A stretch of 64,000 nucleotides of DNA from a virus: the IMG/VR virus record IMGVR_UViG_3300006921_004083, positions 59,783 to 123,782 of that record; one strand, 5' to 3'. How positions within the stretch are numbered: the first letter of the stretch is position 1; every line of letters begins with the position of its first letter. Below the pieces are notes generated by a model. It saw nothing but the letters and a program-made list of their open reading frames with translations. It searched no databases and was not told the origin of the DNA. Shown piece by piece: positions 48,049 to 56,472 of this stretch. The position numbers and the translations under genes are program-made.

Positions 48049-48849
48049 ATGAGTAGATTTATAAATAACGACGAAGATTCAATATCACAGTATTTTAAGG
48101 ACGTAAGAAAAGAAAAACTTTTAACTCCTGAACAAGAAGTGGATTTAGCAAAACAAATTGCCGAAGGAGATGAGGGGGCAATAGATAAGATGGTTAGAGC
48201 AAATCTAAGGTTTGTTATTTCAGTGGCTAAACAGTACCAGAATAAAGGACTTACATTAAGTGACTTAATAGCGGAAGGTAATCACGGATTAATGAAGGCA
48301 GCCACTAGATTTGACCACACAAAGGGATTTAGATTTATCTCCTATGCAGTTTGGTGGATTAAACAAACTATAGTACAATCACTTAATGAAAATTCTAGAA
48401 CGATTAGAGTACCCGTTAATGTTATAACAGAAAACCAAAAACTTTATAAAGAATTGCAAAAAGCGTCATCCAAAGAAGAAGAGGAGGAACTAAGAGAACT
48501 TTTTAATGTTAAACATATACCACAAACCACTTCTCTTTTCACTAAGATAGACGATGAAGGGTCTGAACTAATTGATTTAATAGCAGATGAGGATTGTAAA
48601 AGACCAGATTATTGTGCAGACGAAGAAGTACAACTAAAAAAAGAATTGGATCAAGTCCTATCTATATTATCACCTAGGGAACAAGATATAATTAAAAGGT
48701 ATTTTGGTCTACAGGGAGAAAGTCAAACTTTGGAGGCTATTGGTGAGGCATATTCTCTAACCAAAGAAAGAATAAGACAAATAAAAGAGAAATCTATTCG
48801 TAAACTTAGAAATAATTCATTTTCATTATTTAGGTTCATGGAAGACTAG
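48049..48849 (+). CDS. sigma-70 family factor resembling the primary sigma of Bacteroidota
   Basis: 266 residues. Region 1.2 (SISQYFKDVRKEKLLTPEQE), region 2 (NLRFVISVAKQYQNKG, then FDHTKGFRFISYAVWWIKQ) and region 4 (LSPREQDIIKRYFGL, then ERIRQIKEKSIRKLR) are all present. This is the compact domain order of Bacteroidota RpoD. The segment between regions 2 and 4 is short, acidic and poorly conserved. T4's late factor gp55 is far more divergent, so this looks like a host-derived gene put in the late-sigma role. It should direct host RNA polymerase to phage promoters. Confidence 0.88.
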   Translation: MSRFINNDEDSISQYFKDVRKEKLLTPEQEVDLAKQIAEGDEGAIDKMVRANLRFVISVAKQYQNKGLTLSDLIAEGNHGLMKAATRFDHTKGFRFISYAVWWIKQTIVQSLNENSRTIRVPVNVITENQKLYKELQKASSKEEEEELRELFNVKHIPQTTSLFTKIDDEGSELIDLIADEDCKRPDYCADEEVQLKKELDQVLSILSPREQDIIKRYFGLQGESQTLEAIGEAYSLTKERIRQIKEKSIRKLRNNSFSLFRFMED

Positions 48850-50089: not shown

Positions 50090-50719
50090 ATGAAGATAAA
50101 CAAAACCAAATTTAGATTAACAGAAAATAACTTTTTTTCTAAACCTCAAACAAAGAATAAAATAGTCTTAAGAAATTCAAGTACAAAAGACATGAAGTTT
50201 TTTAATGGTTGGTTGTTAAGACGCAATGGAGAATACAAAAAAGTAACACCATACACGGTAGACAGAGATGGTAGAGTTTATGAACATTATGACCCAAATT
50301 ATTATTCTGAATTCATGGGAACCAAGACCCTGGACAAAGAAACCATAGGAATAACACTGGTTAACCAAGGGTGGTTAAAAAAAGATTCACTAACCAATAA
50401 GTATAAAGACTGGGTTGGTAATATTTATAAAGGAACCGATGTTTTTAAGAAGCAGTGGAGAGGACATTTCTTTTGGGCACCCTATACTGAAAAACAAATG
50501 AAAGTAGTGGGGGAACTAATTGAAAAGTTATGTGAGGAATATAATATAGAAAAAAATTCTTTATCACATAATGTTATGTTTTCAGAAGCCCCTTCATTTA
50601 ACGGAGTTTTAAGTAAGAGTAATTTTTCTAGGGACTTTACTGATATTTCTCCGTCATTTGAGTTTGATTATATCGATAACAAATTATTAAAAGAAAAAAA
50701 TGATGAGCAATCAATATGA
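50090..50719 (+). CDS. N-acetylmuramoyl-L-alanine amidase-like protein (Amidase_2/PGRP fold), altered zinc site
   Basis: 209 residues. Family features: YTVDRDGRVYEHYDP (about 64-78), TIGITLVNQGWL, YKG...WRGHFFWAPYTEKQ (about 117-143), then LSHNVMF and a C-terminal RDFTDISP segment. These match cytosolic phage amidases that cut stem peptides from glycan strands. The first zinc ligand, normally His in a VLHHT-type motif, appears as Arg in IVLRNSS. Activity is therefore uncertain; the protein may be a non-catalytic peptidoglycan binder, or the ligand may have moved. There is no signal peptide, so a holin would be needed. Confidence 0.72.
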   Translation: MKINKTKFRLTENNFFSKPQTKNKIVLRNSSTKDMKFFNGWLLRRNGEYKKVTPYTVDRDGRVYEHYDPNYYSEFMGTKTLDKETIGITLVNQGWLKKDSLTNKYKDWVGNIYKGTDVFKKQWRGHFFWAPYTEKQMKVVGELIEKLCEEYNIEKNSLSHNVMFSEAPSFNGVLSKSNFSRDFTDISPSFEFDYIDNKLLKEKNDEQSI

Positions 50720-51170
50720 CGAAATAAAAAATCTTCTTTCTAGAAGTAGAAACATGAGATATGTTATTAAAGAAGAGGAAGGAAGAGAACTAACACCCGA
50801 AGAACAAAAAAGAGAGGAAGAGGATTTTCGTAGGGCTGTTTCGGATAGAGTTAAATTTGGTAAGATAAGAATTTATGAAAGTGGAGGATTACCAAAAGTA
50901 GAATGGATGGGAGAATTAATAAGAGAACGAATGGAATTTGTTTTCTCTTTGGATGATACAGTTGGTTGTTATATAAGTGCTGATCTTTTACAATTAAGAG
51001 ATGAAACATTAAAAACATTAGAAAAGTTAAGAGCGTATTATGATGGGTGGGCTAAAAAATGGTCCGAGGAAACATCTACAGAGTTTGAAGAAATGGAAGA
51101 AACTGAAGAAGAGCAAGAAGACTTTGATGATATGGGTGTTACTGACCCCGGAGATGATATAGAAATGTAA
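50700..51170 (+). CDS. acidic hypothetical protein in the lysis block
   Basis: 156 residues. The N-terminus has an Arg/Glu-rich helix (KEEEGRELTPEEQKREEED); the centre (WMGELIRERMEFVFSLDDTVGCY) looks folded; the last 30 residues are mostly Glu and Asp. No membrane span is visible. It overlaps the amidase-like gene by 20 nt and is followed after 2 nt by a small membrane gene. Function is unknown. Confidence 0.6.
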   Translation: MMSNQYDEIKNLLSRSRNMRYVIKEEEGRELTPEEQKREEEDFRRAVSDRVKFGKIRIYESGGLPKVEWMGELIRERMEFVFSLDDTVGCYISADLLQLRDETLKTLEKLRAYYDGWAKKWSEETSTEFEEMEETEEEQEDFDDMGVTDPGDDIEM

Positions 51171-52072: not shown

Positions 52073-52396
52073 ATGGATAATATACGCAAATCACTACGTC
52101 AAAATTTATTAAAAGAAAGAAGAAGAAGATCTCCTGAAATAGAAGATATTGAGATTGAGACGGGTACCCGTCAAGACGAAGAGATGACTCTACTATTACA
52201 TGACATCAACCAACTGAATCAAAGAGTACAATATCTAACCAGTCTTAACACAGATTTAATAGAGTTTCTACATACCTTAGTTAAAAGTTTAGACCATAAT
52301 AATGATATAGATATAAGTGACGCTAGAAAAGATTTCACAGTTTTATTAAATAGATCAGGTAGACGTAAATTCTATCAACAAACAAAAAGACTATAA
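52073..52396 (+). CDS. basic small protein with 'LRxxL' N-terminal motif
   Basis: 107 residues from the ATG at 52073; starting at 52061 would add MKYN. I prefer 52073 because the promoter-like element ends at 52055 and the protein would then begin MDNIRKSLRQNLL. That closely matches the start of the next protein (MNLRKTLRKTLL). The middle is a heptad-like helix (about 38-75); both ends are Arg/Lys-rich. An IxE/LxE site near the N-terminus hints at a prohead-protease target. Function otherwise unknown. Confidence 0.6.
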   Translation: MDNIRKSLRQNLLKERRRRSPEIEDIEIETGTRQDEEMTLLLHDINQLNQRVQYLTSLNTDLIEFLHTLVKSLDHNNDIDISDARKDFTVLLNRSGRRKFYQQTKRL

Positions 52397-52397
52397 A

Positions 52398-53885
52398 ATG
52401 AATTTAAGAAAAACACTACGAAAAACATTATTAGAAAACACCTCCAATACTACAGCTTATTATTGTTGTGATGATAGTGATTTATTGGCTTGTAATGCAG
52501 GGGGACCATACTATGACCCATATATTAATCAAAACAATGTAATCGCATTAAATATGTATTCACCAGGAAGTCCTCTGAATATAATTTATGGGACGGCTTT
52601 TCCACAAGGTTACCCATACAATCCGTGGTCAAGTATACAGGACTATCAAGATTGGTGTAATGACCCAATGGTGTCAAATCAAAGTGGACAAGTAGGGGCT
52701 TGGTGCGATGTAGTAGTAGACTCAGTAACATCATATCCAGTAAAGTGCGGTGGAATTGGAATAGATACTTTTGGAGATACCGTTAGCATGAAAAAACCCG
52801 AAACTAGAAAAGGATTCCAAGATGACGTAGAGGAATTAAGACGTAAAGGAAGGAGAAGATCACAGAGTCATGGATATGGTTGTGATTGTGGCGATGGTAA
52901 TTATGATAAAACATGTTGCACTGGGTTAAGTGAATCTAAACAATGTAAATCAGGTATGTATTGGTGTAAAAAATCTGAGAAATGTAAACCAATAAATAAA
53001 AGTAAAAGAAAAAGAGAACAAACCACTTCAGGTGCGGCAGGAGCTTTTAGTCAACCAGTTTTCGGCAAACCAATAAAGAGAAGTATTGGGGAACAAACCC
53101 TTAACCCTGGAGCAGGAACTAATACACAAACAATTCAAGGGGGACAATGTGATGGAGATATAATTGCAGACTATACAATTACTGATTATACATCATTAAT
53201 AGGTGCATTTGTCCATCTTGTAAACAACTATGGAATGTCTGCTGATTTTAGAGACTATGCTTTTACAAAATCTAATGGTGATTATGTTAATCTAGAAATA
53301 GACATACATGAGGATGGCGGTGTAGTCGAATATTTTTCAATAGATGAAATTCATGAAACATACGGAACAGGTCCATTTACTACTGTACAAGAATTATTTC
53401 AATTTTTTCAAGGTCCAAAATCACCAGGGTCAATATCTTTAGGAACATTATTATGTACCGGAGTACAAGGAGTAGATAATTCATTACCTACAGTAGGATT
53501 AGACTCAACAGGTATGGGAGACGGTCCAGGAATGCCTGAATCACCAAATAAAAAAATAAGAAGAGGAAAAATGAAAATAGGTGAGTCTGAATTTATTAAA
53601 TTAATTGAAAAATCAGTTTACGCAGCAACTCATGGAAAAATAATTAAAGAGGCACTTACTGATGCAGATGAAAAAAGAATAGGGGTTTTAGCTAGAAAGG
53701 AACTAAAAGATTATGAAACTAAATTAGAAAAAAAGGTTGACCAAGCAATTAAAAAAGCGTTAAAAGGAAAAGATTTTGAAACTAGCACTCTTAAGATTAC
53801 CAGAAATGCAATTATACAACTATATAAAGCATTATGGATTAGAAGAAGTTTTTGGACGGACTATATCAAAAATACACCATCCTAG
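52398..53885 (+). CDS. modular virion-associated protein candidate with Cys-rich and helical C-terminal modules
   Basis: 495 residues. N-terminal MNLRKTLRKTLLENTSN contains LLE before Asn, like the T4 gp21 cleavage rule. A Cys-rich patch (about 155-205: GCDCGDG, CCTG, KQCKSGMYWCKKSEKC) looks like a small disulphide or metal knot. Then comes a beta-rich middle (about 255-340). The C-terminus (about 395-490) is helical and begins with another SEFIKLIEKSVY segment. No family is named. The gene overlaps the next by its final bases. Confidence 0.6.
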   Translation: MNLRKTLRKTLLENTSNTTAYYCCDDSDLLACNAGGPYYDPYINQNNVIALNMYSPGSPLNIIYGTAFPQGYPYNPWSSIQDYQDWCNDPMVSNQSGQVGAWCDVVVDSVTSYPVKCGGIGIDTFGDTVSMKKPETRKGFQDDVEELRRKGRRRSQSHGYGCDCGDGNYDKTCCTGLSESKQCKSGMYWCKKSEKCKPINKSKRKREQTTSGAAGAFSQPVFGKPIKRSIGEQTLNPGAGTNTQTIQGGQCDGDIIADYTITDYTSLIGAFVHLVNNYGMSADFRDYAFTKSNGDYVNLEIDIHEDGGVVEYFSIDEIHETYGTGPFTTVQELFQFFQGPKSPGSISLGTLLCTGVQGVDNSLPTVGLDSTGMGDGPGMPESPNKKIRRGKMKIGESEFIKLIEKSVYAATHGKIIKEALTDADEKRIGVLARKELKDYETKLEKKVDQAIKKALKGKDFETSTLKITRNAIIQLYKALWIRRSFWTDYIKNTPS

Positions 53886-55228
53886 TGGAAGAAGTAGTAA
53901 AACACGATCTGATAAGTGCTTTTAGTGGGGGTACAACTTCCATAGAAGAACAAACAACCTCTTCTGACGCGGGTCAATATGTAACACCACAAGTTTGGGC
54001 AAAGGATGCTAGTAGTTGGAGAGCGATGAATGATCCAGACTTCCCTATGTATGGAGGACCAGGAGGGAGATTTGTTAAGGTAAAGAAAAAGTGTTCAACG
54101 TTCCCTTATTGTAATCAAGGAGACATTAACGCTTTAGATTTTTATGAAAAACCTAAGAAAAAAAGAAAAAGTAAAAAAAGAATCAAGAAAAAGAAAAAAA
54201 ATAAATTAACTCCTTTAGGTATAAGAAAAAGAAAAATAGCTAAAGATTTAGTGAGGACACAACGAATAAAAACACCGAGAGGTAAACATTATAATATAGG
54301 TAAGCGAATATCTGAAGATACTGGATATTTATATTATAATAACTTATTGACCGTACAAGAGGTTGAAAAAGCAATATTAGAGAATACTATGAAAAATAAA
54401 TTTAGAAAAACCGGAAAAATGTTAGAGGAATCTGTTAAAAAACATTTAATAAATGAGATAGAGACCCACCAAGCTCAAAAATTATATGCTAAGTTAGATA
54501 AACAACAAGGTAAGAGCAATGCAGAAGGGTTGAAACTGGCGGCGGATAAAATTAAAAAATTTATGACAGACGACAAAGGAGTTGAAATGAATCCACCGAT
54601 GTATAGAAATACGAAACCACAAGATGAATATGTGGAGGAAATTAACTACAGTTCAGGACAAACAGGTATTAAATATGATCAGCCCCTAAGTGATGAACAA
54701 AAGAAAAGACATACGGATTATCTTGAAGGATCGATAACTACTGGTAACAACACAGGGAAGGGTGTTGATGGACAACAAGTTGCTAATATCACAATGACCA
54801 ACTCTGAGGGGGGTGCGAATACAACTGGTGAGTTATTAAAAAAGGCAGCAGAACGAAGAATGAAAAATAGAGCGAAAGGTATGGAGATGATGAATAATGA
54901 TAGACGATATTCACCAGATGTACAAGCTACTACATCGGCTGGAAAATTAAAAGAAAATCTTATTACAATCCATGAGCATTCGATTGATACCCCTGAACAA
55001 ATTTTAACTTTAACTCCTCGTGTTTACAAAGTAGACGGCAGAGAATTTAATATTAGTAATGGAAAAGAAACTAAAAAAGTAAGATATGAAAGTTTTATAG
55101 GTGGAAAGAAAGGAGGAACAATTGTAATTTTAGAGGAAAGTAATAAAAAAGGTCTAAGTGAAGAATTAAGTAGGATTAAAAATATGTTTAGTCATAATAC
55201 AAACACGAGACACAATAAATTTATATAA
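53852..55228 (+). CDS. basic virion-associated protein candidate with LxE/IxE motifs
   Basis: 458 residues if TTG 53852 is used. No ATG exists near the 5' end; GTG 53885 overlaps the previous TAG and would give 447 residues. Residues about 100-145 are almost pure Lys/Arg (KKKRKSKKRIKKKKKNK), a likely DNA-binding or condensing patch. A helical stretch (about 165-205) carries VEKAILEN, KMLEESV and HLINEI. The C-terminal end reads GLSEELSRIKNMF, which resembles the start of the next protein (ILREELARMRQLM). Possible internal head protein; inferred only. Confidence 0.6.
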   Translation: MDGLYQKYTILVEEVVKHDLISAFSGGTTSIEEQTTSSDAGQYVTPQVWAKDASSWRAMNDPDFPMYGGPGGRFVKVKKKCSTFPYCNQGDINALDFYEKPKKKRKSKKRIKKKKKNKLTPLGIRKRKIAKDLVRTQRIKTPRGKHYNIGKRISEDTGYLYYNNLLTVQEVEKAILENTMKNKFRKTGKMLEESVKKHLINEIETHQAQKLYAKLDKQQGKSNAEGLKLAADKIKKFMTDDKGVEMNPPMYRNTKPQDEYVEEINYSSGQTGIKYDQPLSDEQKKRHTDYLEGSITTGNNTGKGVDGQQVANITMTNSEGGANTTGELLKKAAERRMKNRAKGMEMMNNDRRYSPDVQATTSAGKLKENLITIHEHSIDTPEQILTLTPRVYKVDGREFNISNGKETKKVRYESFIGGKKGGTIVILEESNKKGLSEELSRIKNMFSHNTNTRHNKFI

Positions 55229-55229
55229 A

Positions 55230-55751
55230 ATGAAAAGTAACGATATTTTAAGAGAAGAATTGGCTCGTATGAGACAACTAATGGGAATGAGTGGTTCCTT
55301 ATACCAAAAACCTATAATGGAAGATGAGTCTAAATCTCATGGAGATGCGGAACCGAACCCGGCAGATTATAAAGGAGGGGAATCAAATCCAGAATATAGA
55401 ACAGCTTATGAACACTGGAGAGAGGCACACCAAGCTAGACCACCAGCTAGACCACCAGCTAGACCACCAGCAAAAGGTGGTCCATCACCAGCACCAGGAC
55501 CTAAACCACCTTCACCACCAGCTTCACCACCAGCTTCACCACCAGCTTCACCACCAGCTTCACCACCATCTTCTTCCAGTGATAAAGGAAAAGGAAAAGA
55601 TGTTAAAAAAAGAGGAACAGGAAGCTTACCAGGAGACTTTATGTTACCAATTGGTATGATTCCAGGTATGGATAAAGGACCTAATAAAGGAGGAAAAAAA
55701 GGAGGAAAAAAAGGTAAAAGAGGTAAGAAGAAAAAAAGAGATGAAGAGTAA
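55230..55751 (+). CDS. Pro/Ala/Ser-repeat protein with Lys/Gly-rich C-terminus
   Basis: 173 residues. N-terminal MKSNDILREELARMRQLMG matches the end of the previous protein. The centre is built of ARPP and ASPP repeats encoded by two 12-bp tandem repeats. The C-terminal 50 residues are Gly/Lys runs (GGKKGGKKGKRGKKKK). It looks like a disordered, DNA-binding linker protein. The coding frame is supported by the repeat unit being a multiple of three and by tight gene spacing; a frame shifted by one also stays open through the repeats but lacks gene context. Confidence 0.6.
   Translation: MKSNDILREELARMRQLMGMSGSLYQKPIMEDESKSHGDAEPNPADYKGGESNPEYRTAYEHWREAHQARPPARPPARPPAKGGPSPAPGPKPPSPPASPPASPPASPPASPPSSSSDKGKGKDVKKRGTGSLPGDFMLPIGMIPGMDKGPNKGGKKGGKKGKRGKKKKRDEE
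55434..55469 (+). repeat. three 12-bp tandem repeats (GCTAGACCACCA)
   Basis: Three exact copies encode Ala-Arg-Pro-Pro. They are in frame, so copy-number change would not break the gene. Confidence 0.9.
55511..55570 (+). repeat. 4.8 copies of a 12-bp tandem repeat (TTCACCACCAGC)
   Basis: Copies start at 55511, 55523, 55535, 55547 and 55559; the last changes AGC to ATC. They encode Ser-Pro-Pro-Ala. The unit shares CACCA with the upstream 12-bp repeat, so both may derive from one Ala-x-Pro-Pro ancestor. Confidence 0.9.
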
Positions 55752-56472
55752 AAAAATATACTTAACACAAGAACAACTTGGAAAAGTAGTTGAGAATCTT
55801 ATTAAAGAAGCAACAGGAACTGATGCGTTGCAAGCTATGGACCCTAAAAAAGGTGTGGTAAAAGGAAAATATACCCCCACAGTTAAAGTACCAGTTAAAG
55901 GACCAGTTAAAGGACCGGGTAAAGTAACAGGAGGACCCACAGGTACAGGAGTTATAACTAACTTTGGTTCACCAAATCAAGTTAGTACAAGTACAAGCGG
56001 AGAGGGAGTACCAAACACAACTAGTAGTAGTACAACTATTGGACTAAATGATATGTTCGGCCCTATGTTTAGTAATGATATAGGATATGATCAATCAATT
56101 AGTAATAATATGAAGTGGCAACAACCAACAGACTTCAAAGGAGTTAACCCAACTTATTTACCAGGTACGTCAAACGATCCAGGGGCTAACTTAAAACTAA
56201 CAGGTGATTTTGGAGTTGACGGAGTTAAATTAAATACCATGAGTGGAGAATATGATATTAAACTAGGTAAACAATTTACTAAAGATATGAAAAAAGGAAA
56301 AATGCCTAAGAAATCTAAAGTAAAACACGCAGAACTTCATCCTAGTAGACATAAAAATAAGTCAAGAATTAAAAATGTGGTACATCCCGATGGTATAACA
56401 AGAGGGGGCGTAACTTTTGACTCTTCATTTAAGGCAGGAAAAGGAGGAGACCCATTTACAGTTAAATCATAA
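55741..56472 (+). CDS. Gly/Lys/Pro-rich virion-associated protein candidate
   Basis: 243 residues. It starts MKSKKIYLTQEQLGKVVENLIKEATG (shortened: LTQEQLGKVV..IKEATG). This has the 'LT..QL.K.V....I.E' form seen at the N-termini of many small proteins in marine T4-like phages, with IKE before Ala as a possible prohead-protease site. KGPVKGP repeats (about 44-60), a Thr/Ser/Gly linker and a basic C-terminal half follow. It overlaps the previous gene by 11 nt. It closes the 52-56 kb cluster. Confidence 0.6.
   Translation: MKSKKIYLTQEQLGKVVENLIKEATGTDALQAMDPKKGVVKGKYTPTVKVPVKGPVKGPGKVTGGPTGTGVITNFGSPNQVSTSTSGEGVPNTTSSSTTIGLNDMFGPMFSNDIGYDQSISNNMKWQQPTDFKGVNPTYLPGTSNDPGANLKLTGDFGVDGVKLNTMSGEYDIKLGKQFTKDMKKGKMPKKSKVKHAELHPSRHKNKSRIKNVVHPDGITRGGVTFDSSFKAGKGGDPFTVKS

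Follow-up and report, generated by a model that had tools for sequence, protein, structure and literature searches.

Do the five consecutive open reading frames (ORFs) A to E, which lie downstream of a sigma factor gene in the virus record IMGVR_UViG_3300006921_004083, encode internal head proteins that are cut during capsid assembly? A sequence-only reading of the window (the whole 64,000-nucleotide stretch analysed here, bases 59783-123782 of the 123,782-base record and the final 64 kb of a 124-kb fragment) had proposed this from short helical peptides containing (L/I)xE, and its observation was partly confirmed. The precedent is the T4 system of capsid-targeting sequences (CTS) and internal proteins (PMC9026906), in which the protease gp21 cuts after L/I-X-E and also removes 65 residues from gp23 (PMC9026906, PMC9958956). 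Our analysis indicates that the cluster probably encodes prohead-targeted, protease-trimmed proteins of a T4-superfamily phage, at least some of them retained, and that it most likely represents the T4 capsid-targeting system in a new, large variant. The sequences themselves provide the tags, conserved cleavage-type sites in B and C, a match between the site of C and that of gp23, and a prohead protease together with gp22 and gp23 in relatives, and these favour a role as cleaved internal head proteins.

Using the sigma factor as query, after C had given no result, we retrieved 80 related loci from IMG/VR. Two of these, L005 (a 231-kb record) and L006 (a 79-kb record), have sigma factors 83% identical to that of the window and show synteny with the cluster; each encodes homologues of A, B and C, and L006 one of E too. 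B and C homologues occupy the same position in about 60 further loci, where B mostly stands alone as a protein of 76-116 aa and C usually comes as two separate proteins. The starts of A and C were set after these relatives; the mechanical TTG start of C at 53852 is probably wrong, and the GTG at 53885, which overlaps the stop of B, matches the relatives. The features of the cluster are as follows, with arrows marking predicted cuts.

52073..52396, + strand: protein A (107 aa), N-terminal tag MDNIRKSLRQNLLKE, remainder helical
52398..53885, + strand: protein B (495 aa), with tag, insert 1, Cys motif, EQTTSGAAGAF stretch, insert 2 and conserved helical domain
52398..52436, + strand: N-terminal tag of B, MNLRKTLRKTLLE↓N, a predicted capsid-targeting and cleavage peptide like the B N-termini of L005 and L006
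53571..53885, + strand: core of B, FIKLIEKSVYAATHGKIIKE↓ALTDADEKRIG..., helical and conserved in the B family (48-sequence alignment A1)
53885..55228, + strand: protein C (447 aa from GTG), with N-terminal SIEE↓QTTSSDAGQYVTP site, C.TFPYCNQG domain, Lys-rich stretch and C2 domain
53885..53980, + strand: predicted prohead-protease site of C, ...TSIEE↓QTTSSDAGQYV, predicted cut after base 53950
55151..55198, + strand: C-terminal peptide of C, GLSE↓ELSRIKNMFSHN, resembling the scaffold C-terminus (scans with a gp22-derived matrix and a regular expression)
55230..55751, + strand: protein D (173 aa), N-terminal ILRE↓ELARMRQLMGM, then Pro/Lys-rich low complexity; gp22 C-terminus matrix score 12.4
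55741..56472, + strand: protein E (243 aa), N-terminal tag KKIYLTQEQLGKVVENLIKE↓A

The site in C closely resembles the propeptide junction of the major capsid protein precursor in relatives. In ten relatives the gp23 precursor carries a propeptide of ~60 residues that ends (L/I)xE↓(Q/T/S/A/G)..SGSF, followed by a Ser/Thr/Gly stretch and SFETVVFP; the segment after the propeptide aligns with T4 gp23, and the gp23 proteins of relatives match T4 gp23 structures. The T4 gp21 rule, the propeptide layout and the T4 alignment together place their predicted cleavage site. The precursor of the closest relative reads SYLINE↓QTTSTDSGSFE and window C reads TSIEE↓QTTSSDAGQYV, with YLVDE↓QTTSGDAGQYV in L006 and QIEE↓QTTSGDAGSYV in L005; this shared context was shown for the C family, not for A, D or E. 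When a matrix built from nine gp23 sites alone was run over all ORFs, C-family proteins made up most of the top non-gp23 matches. The C family was delimited by position, as the ORF following B (49 proteins without redundancy), and 254 others no shorter than 300 aa served as controls; the median best score was 9.9 in the C family, 3.6 in the controls and 3.7 in shuffles (p 9e-17). Because circularity had to be avoided, the P side was held out of a second matrix, made from the P' side only, and the three upstream residues were inspected afterwards: [LIV]xE stood at the junction in 33 of 49 C proteins and in 4 of the 254 others (p 1e-27). The position of the site ranges from about residue 21 to 665. 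Peptides expected after cleavage would start QTTSSDAGQYVTPQVWAK in C and ALTDADEK in B. In L005 (17395-20592), C holds an insert of ~600 aa with a Cys-rich domain (CKHLQNVVNWLTNQLNSGVTG...CGC), which recurs in a tagged protein of that genome's head module (L116:7443-9080), and with GC.D..A.NYNP.A...DGSC repeats in addition.

A prohead protease gene, which the sequence-only reading had proposed to seek elsewhere in the genome, was found as a gp21 type beside gp22 and gp23 in the closest syntenic relative, and none in the fragment itself. An S77 (PF03420) protease is encoded in 11 of 30 related records, that relative included, and one relative's protease matches the T4 gp21 structure 5jbl (4e-20). 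PF07068/gp23 matches occur in 18 of 31 records (own included), some via short fragments only. In the closest relative (L116), the protease gene (L116:9684-10373) is followed by those for three tagged proteins, an acidic gp22-like protein and gp23, in that order; gp22 lies directly upstream of gp23 in relatives and is a different protein from B and C. The N-terminus type of the B tag recurs on relatives' proteins between protease and gp22, and head-module proteins of relatives begin MNLIENIKKELRLLTE, MNLRKNIKKQLRLLKE, MNIRKIIKEELLKE or MKKVIKLNEADLEKLVQKIIREE, the types found on B and E. The L006 homologue of E starts RRIVLTEQQLSRIVKLITEES, and similar N-termini adjoin the protease in L118 and L119 (MKKVIKLNEADLEKLVQKIIREE); homologues of A begin MDPIQKSLRKNLLERR (L005) and MDPIKKSIRQQLIERR (L006). 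Separately, short frames in G003, G004, G006, G007, G012, G015, G016, G019 and G023 match parts of the gp23 profile (132-195, 304-366, 143-196) and stand apart from any full-length gp23 gene.

In the B family, [LIV]xE lies near the start of the conserved domain in 52 of 53 distinct homologues (IKE, LNE, INE, LKE, IRE and others), with P2 free and the P1 Glu (E27 of the fragment) at least 90% conserved in a 48-sequence alignment of 31% mean column identity. In most relatives this site closes a basic peptide of some 5-15 residues at the N-terminus (MKNLIKQILKE↓ELTRADK; MNDIELKHIIKE↓ALTKTDENK), which is the layout of the T4 internal-protein CTS. Window B is more elaborate: insert 1 (residues 14-179) and insert 2 (about 233-396) are each flanked by (L/I)xE and a second tag stands at its own N-terminus, while the versions in relatives, without inserts, are 171-175 aa or 76-116 aa long. 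Insert ends lie within 8 aa of a cleavage site in 48% of cases against 30% at random (intein-like inserts included), so that systematic domain insertion at cleavage sites was rejected in view of this modest enrichment and kept solely within the polyprotein proposal given below. Window B also has the Cys motif C..GMYWC....KC. In the form C..G.(Y/H)WC....(K/S)C, which resembles phrog_30733, the motif recurs in different tagged proteins (window 52935-52990 in B, L005:16880, L116:10378 and Prochlorococcus phage P-HM1). At L064:784, L075:3622, L081:3571 and L064:6516, proteins otherwise 68-96% identical are interrupted in frame by inserts of 147-335 aa whose ends look intein-like (...VTHN^T or ...VSHN^T); three of the four inserts begin with Gly, not Cys or Ser.

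All the peptides quoted in the sequence-only reading are present (LRKTLLEN at B 7-14, VEKAILEN at C 160-167, NLIKEA at E 19-24, ILREEL at D 6-11), as is the motif said to close one protein and open the next (GLSEELSRIKNMF C-terminal in C, ILREELARMRQLM N-terminal in D). Their placement near termini holds in that A has an (L/I)xE site at residue 15, B at 13, C at 22, D at 9 and E at 23, whereas VEKAILEN is internal in C. A site within the first ~25 residues in five of five cluster proteins compares with 31% of other ORFs (first 30 residues), P about 0.003. A clear excess of (L/I)xE over shuffles is confined to B, with 9 sites where 3.0 are expected (P 0.002), and C, with 10 where 4.0 are expected (P 0.0025); D has 2 against 0.6. 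The claim of Lys/Arg richness stood for C, D and E (net charge +29, +13 and +16) but not for A and B (+1 and +2), B and C being large proteins, and low complexity applies to D and to the Lys-rich stretch of C, not to the set as a whole.

The peptides are better read as two kinds, a predicted basic amphipathic tag at the N-terminus and a KMKxL peptide apparently common with the scaffold C-terminus. A regular expression for the first kind matched the N-terminus of 2.5% of 1,654 non-redundant proteins (a count partly made up of the B family itself), against 0.34% of shuffled sequences and 0.53% of internal windows. In the isolate Flavobacterium phage immuto, a looser tag rule matched 14 of 31 ORFs in the head region (101-128.6 kb) and 26 of 194 elsewhere (p 1e-4); predicted starts after tag removal there are ANVTGVNAIGAAGG for gp23 and ALDASTPAPNEIPGG, NKLTTNSK and ARMQHPQ for tagged proteins. 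The second kind, [LIV]xE-..KMKxLxxY, joins C and D to the scaffold: gp22-like proteins of relatives end ...(L/I)xE...YVDPELEKMKKLWDYQYKH or similar, with RWQKLAGIIK in immuto and RMKKLAGIVK in Microcystis phage Mel-JY01. A gp22 C-terminus matrix gave scores of at least 12 for 40 non-gp22 proteins against 4 in shuffles, most of them in the C2 family ([LIV]NED.QKMKHLMGYK), and in this phage it picked out, besides D (ILREELARMRQLMGM), the protein G000:41764-43401 of the tail region (RMKELMGLEPINLSEQ). The Glu site plus KMKxL pattern occurs in 61 of 1,873 proteins and in 0-3 shuffled ones, the C-terminal P1 Glu of C is kept in L005 (LNE↓QLSRMKTLI) and L006 (LTE↓QMVRMKQLF), and in genome G015 IEKMKKLWG[YF] is common to scaffold and C2. 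This likeness may reflect docking mimicry or common descent. A HAD-phosphatase-like protein (YSFDWDDNILHMPT) with the tag-like N-terminus MKRRLLYE is encoded left of the window beside the tail tube gene (G000:39323-40105) and is possibly a packaged enzyme.

From these sequences we infer docking, cleavage, packaging, ejection and DNA binding. The terminal peptides (basic N-terminal tag, KMKxL type or both) would dock the proteins on the gp22-like core during prohead assembly, a gp21-type S77 protease would cut after (L/I/V)xE, the kind of site used for removal of the gp23 propeptide, and the mature proteins would be freed inside the head while fragments remain with the DNA or exit. At least some would be retained and then probably ejected into the host with the DNA, like the T4 internal proteins and Alt. 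B-type proteins resemble retained internal proteins, and C may be retained or shredded. A broader proposal, less likely than not, is a two-signal prohead import code (basic N-terminal helix and mimic of the scaffold's KMKxL peptide, both removed at gp23-like sites) on many proteins, enzyme-like ones included, of large T4-like phages, probably of Bacteroidota, with such proteins as B and the C of L005 acting as prohead polyproteins that would release, inside the head, foreign domains inserted between cleavage sites.

Several observations weigh against cleaved internal proteins. Sixteen of the 49 C proteins lack the site in the held-out test, the C-family sites lie beside a fast-evolving Ser/Thr/Gly linker, and the 49 sites are not independent events, since the C proteins are homologous. 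D has no homologue among the fetched loci, and the (L/I)xE numbers of A and E are at chance, so that total count was dropped as evidence for both. Neither an S77 protease nor a gp23 match was found in the 124-kb record, which is a fragment with its own head module off the contig. Structure predictions were too weak for a fold search both for the B domain (pLDDT 66, pTM 0.29) and for the C2 family (pLDDT 60, pTM 0.28), and a literature search turned up no proteomic data on virions of the phage or its relatives. Another reading is chance, with AT-rich genes rich in Glu, Leu and Lys yielding many LxE from which noise was picked out; A and E show no excess and 31% of other ORFs have LxE in the first 30 residues. 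Such an origin is nevertheless very improbable for the cluster, with the site kept in 52 of 53 B and 33 of 49 C homologues, controls at background and KMKxL at 61 against 0-3; these conservation tests contradict it for B, C and C2, and it is possible for A.

The more serious competitor, although itself unlikely, is that B and C are core or scaffold proteins (gp67/gp68-like or partners of gp22) that are shredded and expelled and are not virion cargo. T4 gp22, gp67 and gp68 are shredded (PMC9958956), the 9 and 10 sites of B and C (3 and 4 expected) run along the chain with several kept in L005 and L006, which also counts against retention, and the C2 part has a peptide in common with the scaffold C-terminus. 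Most relatives, however, have a B that is a small domain with a single N-terminal site, like a T4 internal protein, and a conserved Cys-containing domain, together with the Cys-rich ~600-aa insert in L005, makes C unlike a disposable scaffold. A reading of the peptides as docking motifs that stay uncleaved and bind some other partner (host RNA polymerase, the membrane, or tail or baseplate assembly, for example), with an incidental likeness to protease sites, is improbable. The cluster does lie outside the head module, next to genes for the sigma factor and a cell-wall hydrolase, and the similarly tagged G000:41764-43401 stands among tail genes, but the match to the gp23 precursor site is specific, P' side included, and tagged proteins lie between protease and gp22 in relatives. 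In addition, the conservation of P1 Glu and of L/I/V at P3 with P2 free is more readily explained by protease specificity than by a docking surface. Prohead-targeted, protease-trimmed proteins are the preferred explanation of the cluster.

Two further genes of the window lie upstream of the cluster.

48049..48849, + strand: gp55-type sigma factor (PHROG 351, E 1e-60), the syntenic anchor with 80 related loci, outside the tagged-protein system
50700..51170, + strand: possible sixth member, acidic, with N-terminal ...RYVIKE↓EEGREL site, conserved immediately before the cluster across most loci

In relatives' loci this upstream neighbour often has an N-terminal [LIV]KE. Membership of the T4 superfamily is indicated by two sheath genes (contractile), a gp19-type tube, baseplate wedge and baseplate proteins and the gp55-type sigma factor. 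The host is probably a member of the Bacteroidota, since Flavobacterium phages are among the nearest cultured relatives in capsid and sheath and relatives carry tails resembling type IX secretion system (T9SS) signals. Just upstream of the cluster in L005 (13541-15641) and L006 (13527-14183) are signal-peptide proteins, at least one with a thioredoxin-like part, that end in an apparent C-terminal sorting signal for type IX secretion (NRIFDMLGREW...GMYIINNNKIFKTK); such phage products are apparently addressed to the host T9SS, a hint of a Bacteroidota host. Left of the window, minus-strand genes at G000:739-7554 resemble sugar or surface-glycan biosynthesis genes (amidotransferase, HisF/HisH-like, epimerase), judged on N-termini alone.

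Functions are unassigned for most genes of large environmental phages. If the proposal is true, a terminal signature would mark head-carried, host-delivered proteins and give many 'hypothetical' genes a testable role, with early takeover, counter-defence and DNA packing as candidates, and the peptide apparently common to cargo and the scaffold C-terminus suggests a route of cargo recruitment. Our literature search found no description of such tagged proteins in Bacteroidota phages. In large predicted-Bacteroidetes phages, terminase, portal, prohead protease and capsid genes stand among hypotheticals (PMC9723584). Isolate phages yielded no direct homologues of B or C, B alone giving matches, at chance level.

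Among known systems, T4 internal proteins IPI-III, with a CTS cut by gp21 after (L/I)xE, are similar in their short N-terminal (L/I)xE propeptide, in the small size shared with B-family proteins, in the diverse bodies behind a common tag and in the gp21-type protease, present here in the closest relatives. They differ in that no internal-protein homology was detected here (no PHROG or Pfam family named for internal proteins matched A to E significantly), many more proteins are tagged, enzyme-like ones included, tags are also internal and C-terminal, and the site context is QTTSxDxG; internal proteins are weakly conserved even among T-even relatives (PMC9026906). T4 Alt, whose termini are processed by gp21 (PMC9026906), resembles C in having a site near each terminus, while A to E gave no Pfam match above cut-off and hence no ADP-ribosyltransferase catalytic domain. 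With T4 gp22, gp67 and gp68 the cluster has in common the many (L/I)xE sites of B and C and the KMKxL peptide of C2 and D, found also on the gp22-like C-termini of relatives, immuto and Mel-JY01, although B and C are not homologous to them overall and not beside gp23. The inner-body and ejection proteins of phiKZ and SPN3US, with diverged gp21-like proteases, belong to another phage lineage and are other proteins, and the likeness lies in large heads with many processed internal proteins (PMC5694885, PMC9026906).

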